DNA from: Comamonadaceae bacterium
GTDB lineage: Bacteria > Pseudomonadota > Gammaproteobacteria > Burkholderiales > Burkholderiaceae_C
DNA length: 64,000 bases
Assembly: GCA_021299875.1 (NCBI GenBank)
Contig: JAJTEW010000002.1
Location: 361,449-425,448, forward strand
Reading direction: 5' to 3'
The notes beneath the pieces were generated by a model that saw nothing but the letters and a program-made list of their open reading frames with translations, was not told where the DNA came from and did no database searches. This document shows positions 3,275 to 47,065 of this stretch, in pieces (the stretch's first letter is position 1; every line of letters starts with the position of its first letter). The position numbers and the translations under genes are program-made.

Positions 3275-3418
3275 ATGTCCACCAAGACATCAATATCCGG
3301 ACTCACCGATGAGGAAGCCCAGGAGTTCCACCACTACTGGATGCAGGGCACCGTGGGCTTTACAGCGGTTGCTGTGCTGGCCCACATCCTGGTCTGGGCG
3401 TGGCGTCCCTGGTTCTGA
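3275..3418 (+). CDS. pufB: LH1 antenna beta polypeptide PufB
   Basis: This 47-aa gene is below the ORF-track cutoff. It encodes the beta chain of the core light-harvesting complex LH1. The N-terminal part carries [18 protein letters not shown], followed by one membrane helix with the bacteriochlorophyll-ligating His in AVLAHILVW and the typical terminus WAWRPWF. A strong ribosome binding site (AAAGGAGC) sits six bases before the ATG. In most purple bacteria pufA follows pufB directly; here an extra small gene separates them. Confidence 0.97.
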
Positions 3419-3697: not shown

Positions 3698-3907
3698 ATG
3701 TGGAGAATTTGGCGACTTTACGACCCTTTGCGTGCCATGGTGCTGCAGGGTATTTTCTTGTTTGGCCTGGCCGCGATGATTCACCTCATCTTGCTCAGCA
3801 CCAACAAATTCAACTGGCTCGACGGCGCGAAAAAACCCGTAGCAGCATCGGCGCAAAACTCGCCGCTGCCCGCTGCTGTGGCTTCGCTCCCAGCGCCCAA
3901 GTCCTGA
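3698..3907 (+). CDS. pufA: LH1 antenna alpha polypeptide PufA
   Basis: The 69-aa alpha chain of LH1 starts with the canonical [13 protein letters not shown] and has one membrane helix with the bacteriochlorophyll ligand His29 in [11 protein letters not shown], followed by FNWLDG. The C-terminal Ala/Pro-rich tail ([15 protein letters not shown]) is of the processed or disordered type seen in related alpha chains. A strong AGGAG lies six bases upstream and overlaps the stop of the preceding 74-codon gene. The stop codon is part of a hairpin that begins the pufA-pufL intercistronic region. Confidence 0.97.
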
Positions 3908-6944: not shown

Positions 6945-7757
6945 ATGGAAGCCAGCCCGACCCTTCATGACCCGCTGTCCGGCGTGGTGGTGGTGCTGCT
7001 GGCGGACTTTTTGCGACAACACCAAGGTTGGGGTTGGTTGCGCTTGGTCGCAGGCGCGACGCCTTACAAAGATGTACCCGGCTTGACCATGGTCAAGGTC
7101 ATGGGCAGCGGGCATGGCGGGGGCTTTAGCCTCAGGCCCAGCGCCACGCACCAAGGCCTGATCTGCAATTTCAGTCATCTCGATTTGGCGCTTCAGTTTT
7201 TGGACAGTTCTGCAGTACAGGCTTACCGCAGCCGCGCTCGCGAGTGTTGGACGGGCGTGCTGTCGGTGCAGTCGGCCAGAGGCCATTGGGACAAGCAAGC
7301 CTGGCAGACCAGCAGCCCCGAAGCTTTGGGCTCGCATACCGACAGACAAGAGGATGGGCGTGCACCTTTGGCGGTGCTGACACGGGCCAGCATTGTGCCC
7401 ACCAAGGCCATGGCTTTTTGGCGTTATGCACCTGCGGCACAGGCCGATCTGTCACAAGCCCCTGGCTGCCTTTTGGCCATGGGATTGGGCGAAGCGCCCT
7501 TGGTACGTCAATGCACCTTCAGTTTGTGGCAAGACACCGCCAGCATGCTTCAGTACGCCCGGCAAGGTGCGCACCAAGTGGCCAGTGCCGCTGCCTACAA
7601 ACATCAGTTTTTCTCGGAATCGCTTTTTGTTCGCATGCAGGTTTTGCAAATGGCCGGCGTTTGGATGGGCCGCAGTTATGAACCTCAGGTGATCAAAGTA
7701 CCCTTCGCCGCACCATCTGCTGCGCTGGAGCCTGATCTGGAGCCCAGCCATGTCTGA
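6945..7757 (+). CDS. crtA: Spheroidene monooxygenase CrtA
   Basis: CrtA adds the keto group to spheroidene (and hydroxyspheroidene), giving spheroidenone under oxic conditions. The 270-aa product contains the family pattern FLRQHQGWGWLRLV, GLTMVKVMGSGHGGGFSL, LTRASIVPTKAMAFWRYAP and the C-terminal QFFSESLFVRMQVLQ. Residues 105-130 are a variable insert. It begins 29 bp after pufC and its last codons overlap the start of crtD by 8 bp, so it is probably co-transcribed with puf and crtDC. Confidence 0.85.
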   Translation: MEASPTLHDPLSGVVVVLLADFLRQHQGWGWLRLVAGATPYKDVPGLTMVKVMGSGHGGGFSLRPSATHQGLICNFSHLDLALQFLDSSAVQAYRSRARECWTGVLSVQSARGHWDKQAWQTSSPEALGSHTDRQEDGRAPLAVLTRASIVPTKAMAFWRYAPAAQADLSQAPGCLLAMGLGEAPLVRQCTFSLWQDTASMLQYARQGAHQVASAAAYKHQFFSESLFVRMQVLQMAGVWMGRSYEPQVIKVPFAAPSAALEPDLEPSHV

Positions 7758-9282
7758 GCACCGTGTTGTCATCGTCGGTGCCGGCATGGGCGGCTTGTGC
7801 AGTGCTATTTCCTTGGCGTATCAAGGTTTGCATGTGACCGTGGTTGAAGCTTCTGATGCCCCCGGTGGCAAAGTGCACAGCCGCGAAGTCAATGGCGCAC
7901 ACATCGACAGCGGCCCCACCGTGTTCACCATGCGCTGGGTCTTGGATGACTTGTTGCGCAGCGTAGGCACCAGTGTCGAGTCTGAGATGCGCATTTCGCC
8001 TTTGCAGGTCTTGGCACGGCATTTTTGGCCCGATGGCAGCCAGCTCGATTTGTCGGCCAACGCTCAAGAAAGCGAAGCGGCCATTGCAGCTTGGTCAAGT
8101 GGCAATGAAGCACGCCGTTTTCGCGAATTTTGTAAAACCACGCGTCAGCTTTATGCCGCGCTCGAAGGCCCGATGATCCGTGCCCAGCGTCCCAACATGG
8201 GGCGGTTCATGGGTGACTTGGGTTTCAAGGGTCTTGGCGTTTTGGCGCAACTTGGGCCCATGCGGAGCCTGTGGCAGCAGTTGGGTCAACAATTTTCAGA
8301 TCCGCGTTTGCGTCAATTGTTCGCACGGTATGCCACCTACTGCGGCTCATCACCGTGGCAGTCTCCCGCCACATTGATGTTGATTGCGCAAGTCGAAATG
8401 GACGGGGTATGGTCGGTGGATGGGGGCATGGTCGGTATGGCTCAAGCGCTGGCCCGTGTAGCCAAACAACATGGTGCAATGTTTCGTTACCAAAGCACTT
8501 GCCAGCGCATTGAGCAGCGCCAAGGCAAGGTGAGTGGTGTGCACTTGCAATCGGGTGAATTTTTGCCTGCAGACCGAGTGATTTTCAACGGCGATGCAGG
8601 CGCTTTGCGCCAAGGTTTGTTGGGCGATGGTGTGCGCCGCGCAGTGCCTTCTGAGGCCCCGCCGCGCTCTTTGTCGGCAGTGACTTGGTCCATGCACACC
8701 CCCAGCGAGGGCGTCACCCTTGACCGTCACAACGTGTTTTTTCAAAGCACCTACGCCAGCGAGTTCGAAGACATTTTTGAGCGCCAGCTTTTGCCGCAAA
8801 GCCCCACGGTGTATGTGTGCGCGCAAGACCGACCCGCTCAGTTGGCGCCCGGCCTGGCCGAGCGCATTTTTTGTTTGGTCAACGCCCCCGCCTGTGGTGA
8901 TGGCAACGGCATCACCGAGGAGGCTTTAGAGCAATGCCAAACCCACACTTTTCAGCATCTTCAAAAGCTGGGTCTGTCACTGCAGCCCACGCCGGCCAAC
9001 AGCATCCGCACGACACCGCAAGATTTCCATCGACGCTTTCCGGCGAGCGGGGGGGCGCTGTACGGGCAGGCGACGCACGGCTGGACCAGCATCTTCAGCA
9101 GACCTGGCTCCACCACACCCCTGCAGGGCCTGTATCTGGCGGGGGGCAGCGTGCATCCGGGGCCGGGCGTGCCGATGGCCGCCTTGTCCGGGCAACGGGC
9201 GGCCGAGGCCGTGATGGCGAGCCTCGCTTCGACCAAAACGTTCCAGACGGGGGCTACCTTTGGTGGTATGTCGACGCCATGA
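7750..9282 (+). CDS. crtD: Hydroxyneurosporene/methoxyneurosporene desaturase CrtD
   Basis: CrtD is an FAD-dependent C-3,4 desaturase that acts after CrtC in the spheroidene pathway. The 510-aa protein begins with an ADP-binding Rossmann motif (VVIVGAGMGGLCSAISLA) and the CrtI-family segment VEASDAPGGKVHS followed by GPTVFTMRW. The C-terminal FAD signature is GLYLAGGSVHPGPGVPMAALSG. A second CrtI-family gene at 26.3-27.9 kb is the phytoene desaturase; the 7.7 kb copy is called crtD because it lies with crtA and crtC. The 3' end is overlapped out of frame by the long form of crtC. Confidence 0.9.
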   Translation: MSEHRVVIVGAGMGGLCSAISLAYQGLHVTVVEASDAPGGKVHSREVNGAHIDSGPTVFTMRWVLDDLLRSVGTSVESEMRISPLQVLARHFWPDGSQLDLSANAQESEAAIAAWSSGNEARRFREFCKTTRQLYAALEGPMIRAQRPNMGRFMGDLGFKGLGVLAQLGPMRSLWQQLGQQFSDPRLRQLFARYATYCGSSPWQSPATLMLIAQVEMDGVWSVDGGMVGMAQALARVAKQHGAMFRYQSTCQRIEQRQGKVSGVHLQSGEFLPADRVIFNGDAGALRQGLLGDGVRRAVPSEAPPRSLSAVTWSMHTPSEGVTLDRHNVFFQSTYASEFEDIFERQLLPQSPTVYVCAQDRPAQLAPGLAERIFCLVNAPACGDGNGITEEALEQCQTHTFQHLQKLGLSLQPTPANSIRTTPQDFHRRFPASGGALYGQATHGWTSIFSRPGSTTPLQGLYLAGGSVHPGPGVPMAALSGQRAAEAVMASLASTKTFQTGATFGGMSTP

Positions 9283-10246: not shown

Positions 10247-10399
10247 ATGTCTAACTCAGACAAAGTCTGGCCAACGGGACTGACCCAGGCCGAATCGGAA
10301 GAGATTCACCGCAATCTCATCCAGGGTACGCAGATTTTCGGCATGATTGCCGCATTTGCTCACCTGTTGGCTTATATCTATTCACCCTGGCTCAAGTAA
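10247..10399 (+). CDS. pucB: LH2 antenna beta polypeptide PucB
   Basis: This 50-aa peripheral antenna beta chain has the pattern TGLTQAESEEIHRNLIQGTQ, one membrane helix with the bacteriochlorophyll His in AFAHLLAYIYSPWL, and a short C-terminus. The ORF track lists a longer 81-aa version, but the ATG at 10247 is preceded by CAAGGAGAAAACT and starts exactly where LH2 beta chains start. It lies 104 bp after crtC, with no PpsR-type box seen in that gap. Confidence 0.97.
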   Translation: MSNSDKVWPTGLTQAESEEIHRNLIQGTQIFGMIAAFAHLLAYIYSPWLK

Positions 10400-10411
10400 A
10401 GGGGACACCTC

Positions 10412-10603
10412 ATGATCTATTCGAAAATGTGGTTGGTGGTGAAACCTTCGGTTGGTATTCCAGTGTTCATTGCTGCTGTGGCGATCGCGTCCTTCAGCGT
10501 GCACTTGGCACTGACCTTGAACACCACCTGGGTGAAGGGCTTCCTCAATGGTGGCGCCAAAGTCGTTGCAACCGCTCCGGCGGATGCGGCGGTCAAGAAG
10601 TAA
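10412..10603 (+). CDS. pucA: LH2 antenna alpha polypeptide PucA with Phe44-Leu45
   Basis: This 63-aa LH2 alpha chain aligns without gaps to my recollection of the acidophila-type alpha: KMWLVVKPSVGIPVF, the ligand His31 in SFSVHLAL, TTW at 38-40, then VKGFLNGG. Positions 44-45, which are Tyr-Trp in B800-850 complexes and hydrogen-bond the B850 acetyl groups, are Phe-Leu here, the substitution known from B800-820 complexes. The C-terminal tail (AKVVATAPADAAVKK) is Ala/Lys rich. It starts 12 bp after pucB. Confidence 0.97.
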   Translation: MIYSKMWLVVKPSVGIPVFIAAVAIASFSVHLALTLNTTWVKGFLNGGAKVVATAPADAAVKK

Positions 10604-10654: not shown

Positions 10655-12037
10655 ATGAACAAAACCAACGCATCGTGGACGCAATCGCTGGCCAATTTGG
10701 GGCCACGTTTTTTGCCTTTTGCCGACGCCGCCAGTGAAGATTTGCCACTGTCGCGTTTGCTGCGCCTGTCTTTGTTTCAAATTTCTGTGGGCATGGCGAT
10801 GGTCATGCTCGTGGGCACTCTCAACCGCGTGATGATTGTGGAGCTCAAAGTCTCCGCCACGCTGGTGTCCTTCATGGTGGCGCTGCCCCTGCTCATTGCG
10901 CCGCTGCGTGCCCTCATTGGTTTTCGCTCTGACAACCACCGCTCGCAACTGGGCTGGCGTCGGGTGCCCTACATTTGGATGGGCAGCTTGCTGCAGTTTG
11001 GTGGTTTTTCCATCATGCCTTTTGCGCTGCTGGTCTTGGCCGGTGCTGGACAGTCCAGTCAGGCGCCGGCATGGGTGGGTCAAGTGGGAGCGGCAGGAGC
11101 CTTCCTGTTGGTGGGCCTGGGCATGCACACGGTACAAACCGCAGGTCTGGCTTTGGCCACCGACTTGGCGCCCCCAGAGCGTCAACCCCAAGTGGTGGGC
11201 CTGATGTATGTGATGCAGTTGGTCGGCATGATCGGCAGCGCTTTGGTCTTGGGCTATTTGCTGCACGACTACAGCCCCGGCCAACTCATTCGGGTGGTGC
11301 AAGCCGTGGCCGTGACCACACTGGTTTTGAATGTGGTCGCGCTTTGGAAGCAAGAACCGCGCAGCCGCATGCGCAAACCTGGCACGCCCATCGAATACAC
11401 CTTTCAACAATCGTGGCAACTGTTTTGCAAAGACCAGCACACCGTTAGGCGGTTGTTGGCGGTGGGCTTGGGGACCATGGCATTCACGATGGAAGACGTG
11501 CTGCTCGAACCCTATGGTGGCGAGATTTTGCACATGAGCGTGTCCAGCACCACGTTGCTTTCGGCCACACTGGCCCTGGGCGGTTTGCTCGGTTTTGCTT
11601 GGGCCTCTCGCGTGCTGGGGCGGGGGGCTGACGCGTACCGAATGTCCGGATGGGGCGCCTGGATCGGCTTGCCGGCCTTTGTGGCGGTGATGGCTTCGGC
11701 TCCGCTGGCATCGCCAACGGTGTTTGTGTTGGGCATCTTTTTGATCGGCCTGGGCGGCGGTTTGTTTGCCCACGGCACCTTGACGGCCAGCATGCAGTTG
11801 GCCCCACCCAGTCAGGTCGGCTTGGCCATGGGCGCTTGGGGCGCGGTGCAAGCCACGGCTGCGGGTCTGGGCATGGCGTTGGGTGGAATTTTGCGGGACT
11901 CCGTCGCCATGGTCTCCACCCCAGTCATGGGCTACTCGGCGGTTTATTTGATCGAAATCTTGCTGCTCGCTCTGACCTTGTGGGCGATGGGACCTTTGAT
12001 CAACGCTGCGGTGCGGCCCAACACCAACTCTGCATAA
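10655..12037 (+). CDS. pucC: PucC-family LH assembly transporter-like protein
   Basis: This 460-aa major-facilitator-type membrane protein of the BCH2/PucC/LhaA family has about 12 hydrophobic segments. Family hallmarks are PFADAASEDLPLSRLLRLSLFQ at the N-terminus, GTLNRVMIVEL, IGFRSDNHRS and DVLLEPYGGEIL. Members deliver bacteriochlorophyll or assist assembly of antenna complexes. Position directly after pucBA points to LH2. The ATG has no good ribosome site, so low or coupled translation is possible. It is one of three paralogues in the window (also 31.7 and 45.7 kb). Confidence 0.92.
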   Translation: MNKTNASWTQSLANLGPRFLPFADAASEDLPLSRLLRLSLFQISVGMAMVMLVGTLNRVMIVELKVSATLVSFMVALPLLIAPLRALIGFRSDNHRSQLGWRRVPYIWMGSLLQFGGFSIMPFALLVLAGAGQSSQAPAWVGQVGAAGAFLLVGLGMHTVQTAGLALATDLAPPERQPQVVGLMYVMQLVGMIGSALVLGYLLHDYSPGQLIRVVQAVAVTTLVLNVVALWKQEPRSRMRKPGTPIEYTFQQSWQLFCKDQHTVRRLLAVGLGTMAFTMEDVLLEPYGGEILHMSVSSTTLLSATLALGGLLGFAWASRVLGRGADAYRMSGWGAWIGLPAFVAVMASAPLASPTVFVLGIFLIGLGGGLFAHGTLTASMQLAPPSQVGLAMGAWGAVQATAAGLGMALGGILRDSVAMVSTPVMGYSAVYLIEILLLALTLWAMGPLINAAVRPNTNSA

Positions 12038-31717: not shown

Positions 31718-33175
31718 TCAACCCGGCAGTTGCGCCAGGCCAAAGGGTTGGGGGGTGCCGGTTGTTGGGACCTCTGCCCGCGCGGCCAAACGGCTCGCAC
31801 GCAACATCGGGCCCAAGGCCACCAGCACGACAAACAACAAGTACATTTCCAGGTGGTAGACGAAGCTGTAAGCGGTGATGGGGGTGACCAGCACCTCGCC
31901 CAAAGCCCCCGACATGGCCAGCACCGACACGCCGTCGCGCAAAGCCCCACCCAGCGCCATGGCCGCACCCGCGCTGGTGGCTTGCACAGCGCCCCAAGTG
32001 CCGATGACCAGACCGCCCAGCTTGCCCAACGAACTGCCGTCTTGGGCCATGCCCATGGCGGTGACCAGCATGCCGACCGAAAACAAACCGCCGCTGAAAC
32101 CGATCAGGCCCACGCCGATGCGGAACATCCAGGCGGCTTCGAGTGGGCCTGAAAAAATCACCATCGCAAATGCGGGCAAGCCCAGCAGCACACCCAGACT
32201 GGCCAAGCGGCAGGCGTGCATGCCACCCGACAGCCAGCGGGCTGACAACAGGAAAGCCAGCAAAGCGCCACCGGCACTCAAAGCCGTGAGGGCGCTGGTG
32301 GCGCCCACGTCGAGCTTCAGGATCTCGGCGGCATAGGGCTCGAGCACGATGTCTTGCATGTTGAAGGCGAAGGTGCCCAAGGCCAGGGTCCACAAAAAGC
32401 GCCGCATCTGCGGTTGGGCCATGAGGTCACGCCAGCTGCTGGCAAAGCCCCCGGCTTCGCGGCGACCGCGCTTGGCACCCCGAGCCTCTTGTTTCCACAG
32501 CGAGGCCAGATTCATCACCGCCACCATCACGGCACAGCCTTGCACCAGCTGAATGAGTTTTTGCGGGCTGAAGTCGGCGAGCAACCACCCAAACACCGCG
32601 CTGCTGGCGATCATGCCCACCAGCAGCATGCTGTAGAGCAAGGCCACCACGCGGGGGCGCTTGTCGTCGTTGGCCAAATCATGCGCCAGCGCCATGCCAG
32701 CGGTTTGTGTGACCTGAATGCCGGTGCCCACCAACACAAAAGCCAGGCAGGCGCCCAGTTGGCCCAGCCACAGGTTGGCGGCCTCGGGCTCTGACAACAG
32801 CAGCAAGGCAAAGGGCATGATGGACAGGCCGCCAAACAGCAGCAAGGTGCCGGTCCACAAATAGGGAATGCGGCGCAGGCCCAGCGCCGAGGGGTGCGTG
32901 TCGCTGCGGTAACCGATCAGGGTGCGCAACGGTGCGAACACCATGGGGATGGCGACTGCCAAAGCCACCCACCAAGCGGGCACTTGCAGCTCCACGATCA
33001 TGACCCGGTTGAGCGTACCCACCAGCAGCGCCGTCACCATGCCGATCACCACCTGGAACAGCGACAGGCGCAAGAGGCGCGCCATCGGCAGCTCAGGCGA
33101 GGCCGCATCGGCAAACGGCATGAAGCGTGTGCCGTAGGCCGTGAACCAGCGGGGCATGGGGACACGCAGTTTCAT
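31718..33175 (-). CDS. lhaA: LhaA, PucC-family LH1 assembly protein
   Basis: This 485-aa MFS-type membrane protein, paralogous to PucC, shares FMPFADAASPELPMARLLRLSLFQ, GTLNRVMIVEL, GYRSDTHPSALGLRR and DIVLEPYAAEIL. Position between bchM and puhA is the conserved site of lhaA, needed for LH1 assembly in Rhodobacter. ATG 33175 overlaps the bchM stop as ATGA; the longer track start at 33193 would lie inside bchM. Confidence 0.93.
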   Translation of the reverse strand: MKLRVPMPRWFTAYGTRFMPFADAASPELPMARLLRLSLFQVVIGMVTALLVGTLNRVMIVELQVPAWWVALAVAIPMVFAPLRTLIGYRSDTHPSALGLRRIPYLWTGTLLLFGGLSIMPFALLLLSEPEAANLWLGQLGACLAFVLVGTGIQVTQTAGMALAHDLANDDKRPRVVALLYSMLLVGMIASSAVFGWLLADFSPQKLIQLVQGCAVMVAVMNLASLWKQEARGAKRGRREAGGFASSWRDLMAQPQMRRFLWTLALGTFAFNMQDIVLEPYAAEILKLDVGATSALTALSAGGALLAFLLSARWLSGGMHACRLASLGVLLGLPAFAMVIFSGPLEAAWMFRIGVGLIGFSGGLFSVGMLVTAMGMAQDGSSLGKLGGLVIGTWGAVQATSAGAAMALGGALRDGVSVLAMSGALGEVLVTPITAYSFVYHLEMYLLFVVLVALGPMLRASRLAARAEVPTTGTPQPFGLAQLPG

Positions 33176-33882
33176 GAGCGGGTCCACTCCCAAGCTTGAG
33201 AGGTGTAGAAACCGCTGGCCACGCGCTGCATGCGTGCGCCTTGCCAGCCCTGCAAATCCAGGTGGTTTTGCATGCGTTGCAGCAAGTCGGCATGTGCCAC
33301 GGGCGAGAGAGAAGGCGAGCGGTCGCTGCGCGGAAACAGTCGGCCCGCGCTGTGCATCAGGGCCAAGAGCGGTGTGCGCGGCGCAAACGTGAAGGCCATG
33401 GAGCCGCGTGTGCGCTGGGCCAAACCGGCCAAAGCTTCGGCGATTTGGTCGCTGTCGTAGTGGATGAGCGAGTCCATGCAGACCACATGGTCAAAGTGGC
33501 CCAAGTCGGGGCTGAGCATGTCGCCGGACATGAATTCCACCGAGCCGGGCAGGGTGGGGTGTTCAGCAGCCATGCGTTCGGCAGCCAACTTGACCAAGGT
33601 GGGCGAGAGGTCGATGGCCACAACGTGGGCACCGCGCAGGGCCGCTTGCAAGGCCAGCGCGCCGGTGCCACAACCGGCATCCAACACGCGCAGACCCCGC
33701 AGGTCTTGCGGCAGCCACGACAGCAGGGTCTCACGCATGGTGTCGCGCCCGGCGCGCACGGTGGCGCGGATGCGGCCCACCGGCTCGTTCGAGGTCAGGC
33801 GTGCCCAGGCATCGGCCGCTGTGCGGTCGAAGTAGTGCTCGATCTGGCTGCGGCGTTGTTCGTAAGCGGTGGTGCTGTTCAT
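33172..33882 (-). CDS. bchM: Mg-protoporphyrin O-methyltransferase
   Basis: BchM methylates the ring C propionate of Mg-protoporphyrin IX with S-adenosylmethionine. The 236-aa class I methyltransferase has the SAM motif VLDAGCGTGALALQAA near residue 67 and the family segments YFDRTAADAWARL and GDMLSPDLGHFDHVVCMDSLIHY. It lies 21 bp downstream of bchL and overlaps lhaA by 4 bp. Confidence 0.95.
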   Translation of the reverse strand: MNSTTAYEQRRSQIEHYFDRTAADAWARLTSNEPVGRIRATVRAGRDTMRETLLSWLPQDLRGLRVLDAGCGTGALALQAALRGAHVVAIDLSPTLVKLAAERMAAEHPTLPGSVEFMSGDMLSPDLGHFDHVVCMDSLIHYDSDQIAEALAGLAQRTRGSMAFTFAPRTPLLALMHSAGRLFPRSDRSPSLSPVAHADLLQRMQNHLDLQGWQGARMQRVASGFYTSQAWEWTRS

Positions 33883-44711: not shown

Positions 44712-45695
44712 ATGGACACCCCGCCACTGGCCCACACGCCCCCTTCCCAGGCTTCTCTTGCAGGCGCAGTGCATGCCGCACGGGTGGTGCCGCTGAGTCG
44801 GCCCTCTTGGCGCACGGTGGCCGAATTCCTTAAACCCATCACTTGGTTCCCACCCATGTGGGCCTTTGCCTGCGGCGTGGTGGCCTCGGGCCAAGACATT
44901 GGCGCCAACTGGGTTTTGTTGCTTTTGGGTCTGGTGCTGACGGGCCCATTGGTGTGCGCCAGCAGCCAGGCGGTCAATGACTGGTTTGACCGGCATGTGG
45001 ACGCCATCAACGAACCCAACCGCCCCATCCCTTCAGGGCGCATGCCCGGTCGCTGGGGGCTGGGCATTGCCATCACCTGGACAGTGCTGTCGCTGATCTG
45101 GGCCACGCTCATGGGGCCTTGGGGTTTTGCGGCCTGCGCCTTGGCCATTGCGCTGTCTTGGGCATACAGCGCGCCGCCGGTGCGCCTGAAAAACAACGGT
45201 TGGTGGGGCAATTGCGCTTGCGCATTGAGTTACGAAGGTTTGGCTTGGCTGACCGGCACGGCCGTCATGCTGGGTGGGGCTTGGCCTGGTCCGCATTCGG
45301 TGGCGCTGGCGCTGCTTTACAGCGTGGGTGCGCACGGCATCATGACGCTGAACGATTTCAAGGCCATCGAAGGCGATCGCCGCATGGGTGTGGCTTCACT
45401 GCCGGTGCAGCTGGGTGCACAGGGTGCGGCGCGCATGGCCTGCGTGTTCATGCTGGTGTCGCAGGTGGTGGTGGCCTTGCTGTTGGCCCACTGGCAGTTG
45501 CCATGGCACTCGTCCGCTGTCTTGGCCCTTGCGGTGTTGCAAGGGCCCTTGATGCTCAAATTTTTACGCCAACCTGTTGAGCGTGCATTGCATGTGTCGG
45601 CCTTTGGCGTGCCGCTGTTCGTCAGCGGCATGATGGTCAGCGCTTGGGGTTTGCGTCAGCTCGGTCTGTTGCAACAGACGGCGGGGGTCGCATGA
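44712..45695 (+). CDS. bchG: Bacteriochlorophyll synthase
   Basis: BchG esterifies bacteriochlorophyllide a with geranylgeranyl (or phytyl) diphosphate. The 327-aa UbiA-type prenyltransferase has about eight or nine helices and the Asp-rich motifs NDWFDRHVDAINEPNRPIPS and LNDFKAIEGDRRMG. The first 30 residues are variable. Its promoter region contains two PpsR-type boxes, and its stop overlaps the next gene as ATGA. Confidence 0.96.
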   Translation: MDTPPLAHTPPSQASLAGAVHAARVVPLSRPSWRTVAEFLKPITWFPPMWAFACGVVASGQDIGANWVLLLLGLVLTGPLVCASSQAVNDWFDRHVDAINEPNRPIPSGRMPGRWGLGIAITWTVLSLIWATLMGPWGFAACALAIALSWAYSAPPVRLKNNGWWGNCACALSYEGLAWLTGTAVMLGGAWPGPHSVALALLYSVGAHGIMTLNDFKAIEGDRRMGVASLPVQLGAQGAARMACVFMLVSQVVVALLLAHWQLPWHSSAVLALAVLQGPLMLKFLRQPVERALHVSAFGVPLFVSGMMVSAWGLRQLGLLQQTAGVA

Positions 45696-47065
45696 GCACA
45701 GCCTTGAACCCCTCGATGTTTGGGTGGTTCCAAATCATCCGATTGGGTCTGATTCAGGCCTGTCTGGGCGCAGTGGTCGTGGTGACCACGTCTACGCTCA
45801 ACCGCATCATGGTGGTCGAGTTGGCGCTGCCTGCCTTGCTCCCGGGCTTTTTGGTGGCTTGGCATTACGCAGTGCAAATGGTGCGCCCGCGCATGGGTTT
45901 TGGCGCCGACAAGGGACGGCGCAGCACGCCCTGGATGATGGGCGGCATGCTGGTGCTGGGCGTGGGCGGCGTGATGGCCGCTTGGGCCACCGTCTGGATG
46001 GCCTCGCAGCCTCTTTATGGCGCGCTGCTGGCTTGGTTCTCCTTCAGTTTGATTGGCCTCGGTGTCAGTGCCTGTGGCACGTCACTGCTGACCCTGATGG
46101 CCAAACGCGTGCCCGACGAGCGCCGGGCGCCTGCGGCCACCACCGTGTGGTTGATGATGATCGTGGGTTTCGCGGTCACTGCCGGTGTGGTGGGCAAACT
46201 CATCGACCCTTACAGCCCGCAGGTGCTGTTGCAGGTTTCGGCAGGACTGAGCCTGGTCACAGCAGGCATCACGGCGCTGTGTTTGTGGGGCCTGGAAACA
46301 CCCATGGACCCCGCCACCGAAAAGATGCAGTCCGACAGCTTGGCCAAAGCGCGCTTGCAAAAACAAAATTTCAAAGAGGCCTTCCAAGAGGTCTGGGCCG
46401 AGCCTGCGGCGCGCACTTTCACCGTGTTCGTGTTCATGTCCATGCTGGCCTACAGCGCGCAAGACTTGATCCTGGAGCCCTTCGCGGGCGCGGTGCACGG
46501 CTTCTCGCCGGGGCAGACCACGCAGCTGTCGGGCTGGCACCACATGGGTGTGTTGATCGGCATGCTGGCGGTGGCTGGGGCCGGTTCACGCTGGGTGGCG
46601 GGGCGTCTGGGATCGGTGCAAGCCTGGATGGTGGGCGGCTGTTTGTTTTCGGCCTTGGCCACGGTGGGTTTGGTCAGCTCGGCGCTGTCGGTCGATTGGC
46701 CTCTCAAGGCCAACGTGGTGTTTCTGGGTGTGGCCAACGGCGCTTTCTCGATCGCGGCGATTGCCACCATGATGCGCCTGGCCGGTGAAGGTGGCGCGGG
46801 CCGCGAAGGCACACGCATGGGTTTGTGGGGCGCGGCGCAAGCGGCGGCCTTTGGCTTGGGTGGTTTGCTGGGCACGGCTGCCAGCGACTTGGCCCATGCC
46901 TTGTTGGGTGAACAGCGCACGGCTTATGCGGCTGTGTTTGGCATGCAAGCGTTGATGTTTGCGGTATCGGCGGCGGTGGCTGTGCGCCTGCGTGCCGGGC
47001 CTGCGCAACGTCAGCTCTTGCGTTTTGATGGTCCCGTATTACTCAAAGGTGGGTCAAGCTCATGA
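45692..47065 (+). CDS. BCH2/PucC-family MFS protein between bchG and bchP
   Basis: This 457-aa third member of the PucC/LhaA family is more divergent: it lacks the FADAASE start but has RLGLIQACLGAVVVVTTSTLNRIMVVELALP, MGFGADKGRRSTPW and SAQDLILEPFAGAVHGF. The position between bchG and bchP is conserved in purple bacteria (orf428/bch2-type genes). Related proteins are thought to deliver or channel pigments; the precise role is unknown. It is coupled to both neighbours through ATGA overlaps. Confidence 0.9.
   Translation: MSTALNPSMFGWFQIIRLGLIQACLGAVVVVTTSTLNRIMVVELALPALLPGFLVAWHYAVQMVRPRMGFGADKGRRSTPWMMGGMLVLGVGGVMAAWATVWMASQPLYGALLAWFSFSLIGLGVSACGTSLLTLMAKRVPDERRAPAATTVWLMMIVGFAVTAGVVGKLIDPYSPQVLLQVSAGLSLVTAGITALCLWGLETPMDPATEKMQSDSLAKARLQKQNFKEAFQEVWAEPAARTFTVFVFMSMLAYSAQDLILEPFAGAVHGFSPGQTTQLSGWHHMGVLIGMLAVAGAGSRWVAGRLGSVQAWMVGGCLFSALATVGLVSSALSVDWPLKANVVFLGVANGAFSIAAIATMMRLAGEGGAGREGTRMGLWGAAQAAAFGLGGLLGTAASDLAHALLGEQRTAYAAVFGMQALMFAVSAAVAVRLRAGPAQRQLLRFDGPVLLKGGSSS

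Follow-up and report, generated by a model that had tools for sequence, protein, structure and literature searches.

The puc operon and the photosynthesis gene cluster

The window, a stretch of 64,000 nucleotides from a freshwater Comamonadaceae bacterium closely related to Limnohabitans planktonicus, carries a pucBAC operon on its forward strand. The pucB gene (10247–10399; PF00556) encodes an LH2 beta chain of 50 residues with the B850 ligand H39, a Trp at H+9, and Gln29 at H−10. The pucA gene (10412–10603) encodes the alpha chain of 63 residues, identified by its translation (MIYSKMWLVVKPSVGIPVFIAAVAIASFSVHLALTLNTTWVKGFLNGGAKVVATAPADAAVKK, followed by the stop codon), its match to the Pfam LHC family PF00556 (31.3 bits, cut-off 23), and a gapless phmmer alignment. 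It is followed by pucC (10655–12037; PF03209, 497 bits), whose product is a PUCC-family LH2 assembly protein. Both chains belong to the LHC family and carry the B850 ligands, H31 in alpha and H39 in beta; together with the adjoining pucC, this identifies PucBA as an LH2. Also on the forward strand, upstream of pucBAC, lie a carotenoid desaturase-like gene (7750–9282; PF01593), probably crtD judging from its position, and the LH1 genes pufB (beta chain, 3275–3418; PF00556) and pufA (alpha chain with His29 and Trp40 at H+11, 3698–3907; PF00556). Reaction-centre genes are found about 6 kb upstream of pucBA on the same strand. The puc operon is thus located inside the photosynthesis gene cluster, as is known for Limnohabitans (PMC12654162) and Rhodoferax antarcticus (PMC5374385).

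Several other features of the locus were recorded. The cluster encodes three PUCC-family proteins (10655–12037, 31718–33193, and 45644–47065), which probably serve the assembly of LH2, that of LH1, and a third such step. The pucB product matches the NCBIfam equivalog model for LH1 beta chains, NF040862 (65.9 bits, cut-off 61), and LH2 beta chains may therefore receive an LH1 beta label in automatic annotation. PucB Gln29 (10331–10333) stands where Rba. sphaeroides has Arg (beta-Arg30, which bonds the B800 acetyl group); Gln at H−10 was found in 104 of the 113 surveyed Burkholderiales PucBA pairs and could influence B800 tuning and the carotenoid field response. The window has 12 PpsR-type TGT-N12-ACA sites where 14 would be expected, none of them at pucBA, and a scan for sigma-70-type promoters around pucBA gave no match.

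The genome (3.13 Mb, 99.94% complete) holds one LH2. Searched in full with PF00556, it yielded four LHC chains, namely pufB, pufA, pucB, and pucA. One pufBA and one pucBA make the latter the organism's only LH2, which was the condition on which the original prediction of a short-wavelength antenna depended. Exactly four LHC chains were also found in each of 11 genomes from named Limnohabitans loci, including L. planktonicus II-D5, and in nine further Burkholderiales genomes that were picked for their differing residues.

Residues around the B850 pigments and the expected absorption

PucA aligns without gaps to the LH2 alpha chains of the solved structures 1KZU, 1IJD, 7PBW, and 7ZE3, in a register that places His31, the alpha-B850 ligand (codon 10502–10504), T38-T39-W40, Val41 (10532–10534), and Phe44 and Leu45 (10541–10546). 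The last two are Tyr-Trp or Tyr-Tyr in B800-850 LH2, and both hydrogen-bonding aromatics are therefore replaced, as had been claimed from the sequence. Ser27 (10490–10492) is present; its counterpart in Rba. sphaeroides bonds to the C13-1 keto group of B850 (PMC9618040). The alpha N-terminus is short, with 30 residues before His31, and is gapless to the nonamers 1KZU, 7PBW, and 7ZE3, so the PucBA ring is probably nonameric.

The replacement of residues 44 and 45 had been read as the signature of a B800-820 (LH3) complex. A comparison of nine LH2 structures relates two hydrogen bonds to the C3-acetyl groups to absorption near 850 nm, one to about 825 nm, and none to about 800 nm (PMC9618040). 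In the LH3 of Rbl. acidophilus 7050 (1IJD) the bonds from 44 and 45 are lost, but Tyr41 keeps one to the alpha-B850 acetyl group (PMC9618040, Table 1; PMC6988754). The window chain shares F44 and L45 with this protein, which is one of several regulated LH2 forms in its host, whereas Tyr41 is replaced by Val. The loss of the acetyl donors at 44 and 45 thus stands, and the LH3 label needs correction at residue 41. With no donor at 41, 44, or 45, the V41/F44/L45 triad belongs with the no-bond class exemplified by the PucD-LH2 of Rps. palustris (7ZE3), an LH4-like complex with Val at position 41 (PMC6988754), no acetyl bonds, and a peak at 803 nm (PMC9618040). This chain is also the best match of PucA in the PDB (WVAKFMNG, against WVKGFLNG in the window); the B-800/814 structure 9LT4 is not among the best five PDB matches listed. 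The PucD chain sequence reads F44-M45; at one point in the text of PMC9618040 the Met and the Phe are interchanged.

The resemblance to PucD-LH2 (V41, F44, an apolar residue 45, N46-G47, and the lack of C3-acetyl donors) is incomplete. PucD-LH2 has Val27 and Met45 in place of Ser27 and Leu45, Arg instead of Gln at H−10 of the beta chain, and a gamma subunit, and it is one of five pucBA pairs, made in low light only. The no-bond class also shows a single merged band near 803 nm, whereas a review table gives L. planktonicus two LH peaks, 799 and 813 nm, next to an LH1 peak of 865 nm (PMC12654162). The PucA of L. planktonicus II-D5 (locus L060) is 95% identical to that of the window and has the same residues 27, 41, 42, 44, and 45; it too comes from a sole pucBA followed by pucC, and apart from I25V its few differences lie in the C-terminal tail. 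Since this is almost the same protein, we take 813 nm as the best estimate for the window's LH2, bearing in mind that it is a species-level value taken from that table and that the measured strain may differ from II-D5.

Two further LH2 complexes, one engineered and one natural, are close to that of the window. The Y44F/Y45L mutant of Rba. sphaeroides LH2 has F44, L45, Ser27, and a non-donor at position 41, as does the window chain, and absorbs at 826 nm (PMC8775250); it differs in having Leu41 instead of Val41 and Arg at H−10 of the beta chain, and in its wavelength (826 against 813 nm). Its spectrum shows that the wavelength is not fixed simply by losing the C3 bonds, and together with the 803 nm of PucD-LH2 it gives an expected range of 803–826 nm. 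Rhodoferax antarcticus, described in 2017 as having LH3 only, absorbs at 819 nm (PMC5374385). It is likewise a member of the Burkholderiales with a sole pucBAC in the photosynthesis cluster by crt genes and without donors at 44 and 45, but these residues are F44/F45 there and F44/L45 here.

We therefore consider it very likely that pucA encodes the alpha chain of the sole and ordinary, probably nonameric, LH2 ring of this organism, with a blue-shifted long-wave band. At 44 and 45, Phe and Leu take the place of the donors to the two B850 C3-acetyl groups, Val takes that of Tyr41, the substitute donor of LH3, and Ser27 is retained. Without their bonds, the acetyl groups would turn out of plane and the site energies would rise. 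This would move the B850 band to a predicted position of about 813 nm (803–826 nm), partly merged with B800. Transfer of energy to an LH1 near 865 nm would then be steeply downhill, and little would return. The short-wavelength LH2 that had been proposed is upheld as a prediction, by the loss of both acetyl donors and by the 813 nm of the species with the L. planktonicus orthologue.

Other readings were weighed against this one. The closest is a true LH3-type B800-820 antenna like that of Rbl. acidophilus 7050, with one acetyl bond left and a band at 820–825 nm. The identity of F44 and L45 with the residues in 1IJD, the 826 nm of the Rba. sphaeroides FL mutant, and the 819 nm of Rfx. antarcticus all speak for it, but the bond-keeping Tyr41 is Val here and was found in none of 90 distinct FL alphas (V in 85, F in 4, I in 1), and L. 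planktonicus has its band at 813 nm. We regard this reading as unlikely. It is considerably less probable that another donor, Lys42 at H+11, beta-Trp48 at H+9, or Asn46, restores an acetyl bond and with it a long-wave band. The positions alpha H+11 and beta H+9 are reportedly those of the donors in LH1 and in the LH2 of Phs. molischianum (in part PMC9618040), and Lys42 is conserved within the genus. However, FL chains show no enrichment of Lys42, and its changes never run with the switch (0 the same way, about 2 opposite); for this lack of association it was rejected as a compensating donor. Asn46 was rejected as well: it accompanies FL in most rows, yet it also occurs in PucD and in donor-bearing palustris alphas. 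PucD-LH2 lacks the bonds although it has both Asn46 and the beta Trp at H+9, and the review table gives no 850-nm band for L. planktonicus, whose residues are the same.

The wavelengths also invite comparison with the second ring (LHh) around the RC-LH1 of Gemmatimonas phototrophica, which absorbs at 816 nm, close to 813 nm, and a review raises this possibility for Limnohabitans (PMC12654162). LHh derives from LH1 genes (PMC12817894), whereas PucA matches the free LH2 rings with E values of 1e-12 to 1e-8 (49 bits) and the Gemmatimonas outer-ring alpha (7O0U, chain aa) with an E value of only 0.59 (13.7 bits), and the 30 residues before His31 follow the nonameric LH2 pattern. On sequence match, PucA is thus not an LH1-derived alpha, and a ring of this kind in place of separate LH2 rings seems the least probable of the alternatives, if by a small step.

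Conservation and switching of the motif

The F44-L45 pair is not a chance feature of one gene. Among 27 distinct nucleotide sequences of the genus, L45 is encoded by four synonymous codons and F44 by two, with a single TAC (Tyr) at position 44, and over pucA codons 1–51 pS is 0.30–0.41 against a pN of 0.009–0.069; the triad has been kept despite synonymous variation. Limnohabitans sp. Rim28, whose PucA is 97% identical to that of the window, has F44-L45. Tyr44-Leu45 occurs in a few Limnohabitans strains, Hippo3 (loci L026 and L079) and JirII-31 (L104), whose LH2 should have regained one bond and, with it, a redder band. Two observations concern the quality of the material. In locus L031 (genome G049, 62% complete) pucA is split over two frames, through a frameshift or an assembly error. 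Photosynthesis loci L058, L123, and L128 come from MAG contigs titled Akkermansia muciniphila, Rickettsia typhi, and Bordetella parapertussis, and these titles are almost certainly wrong.

The motif is also common outside the genus. Among 113 distinct Burkholderiales alphas, a set enriched for close relatives by the way it was gathered, 90 have FL, in the combinations with residue 41 given above. Tyr44 with Tyr or Trp at 45 was found in 12 of the 113, where residue 41 is L (9), M (2), or Y (1). In the more even family-level sample (loci L035–L057) both donors are missing from 10 of 23 alphas, and in the order-level sample (L138–L161) from 21 of 24 PucA. A short-wavelength LH2 as the only one had been called an unusual choice; on the contrary, the combination of V41/F44/L45 and a single pucBA is the usual one for Limnohabitans as well as for many other phototrophic Burkholderiales.

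A PucC tree with 62 rows requires, by parsimony, at least nine changes of the two-donor state; such counts are approximate, since the tree has 16 weak forks and gene exchange between lineages may contribute. Seven independent pairs lie on supported branches; in six of them residue 41 moves in the same direction as residues 44–45, and in none does it move in the opposite one (sign test, p 0.031). Two of the switches lie inside genera with a single pucBA, g116 (FKTFVN against LKAYYS) and g100 (IKxFFN against L-x-AYY). The FL alphas of another genus, g193, carry Ala27 at locus L157 and Ser27 at L160 and L161. We tentatively propose, at somewhat less than even odds, that in single-pucBA Burkholderiales the colour of LH2 has switched at least nine times, also within genera, by coordinated change of residues 41, 44, and 45, and that the bond from Ser27 to the C13-1 keto group holds the no-bond band near 813 rather than 803 nm.

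In blue-shifted mutants of Rba. sphaeroides, forward transfer to LH1 takes 7.0 ps instead of 4.6 ps, only a limited slowing, and the reverse step is slowed as well, an effect believed to be an advantage in low light (PMC8775250); by analogy, the window organism may draw a similar benefit.

The antenna is ordinary in kind. What is new is that the 813-nm band reported for the widespread freshwater genus Limnohabitans can be explained at the level of residues, and that nature offers test cases for a question posed in PMC9618040: does the Ser27 bond tune an LH2 that has lost both acetyl bonds? These cases are the FL pair with Ala27 and Ser27 in genus g193 and the Tyr44-Leu45 strains Hippo3 and JirII-31 of Limnohabitans. 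Antennae of short wavelength only are common in this group, beyond the one Antarctic species.
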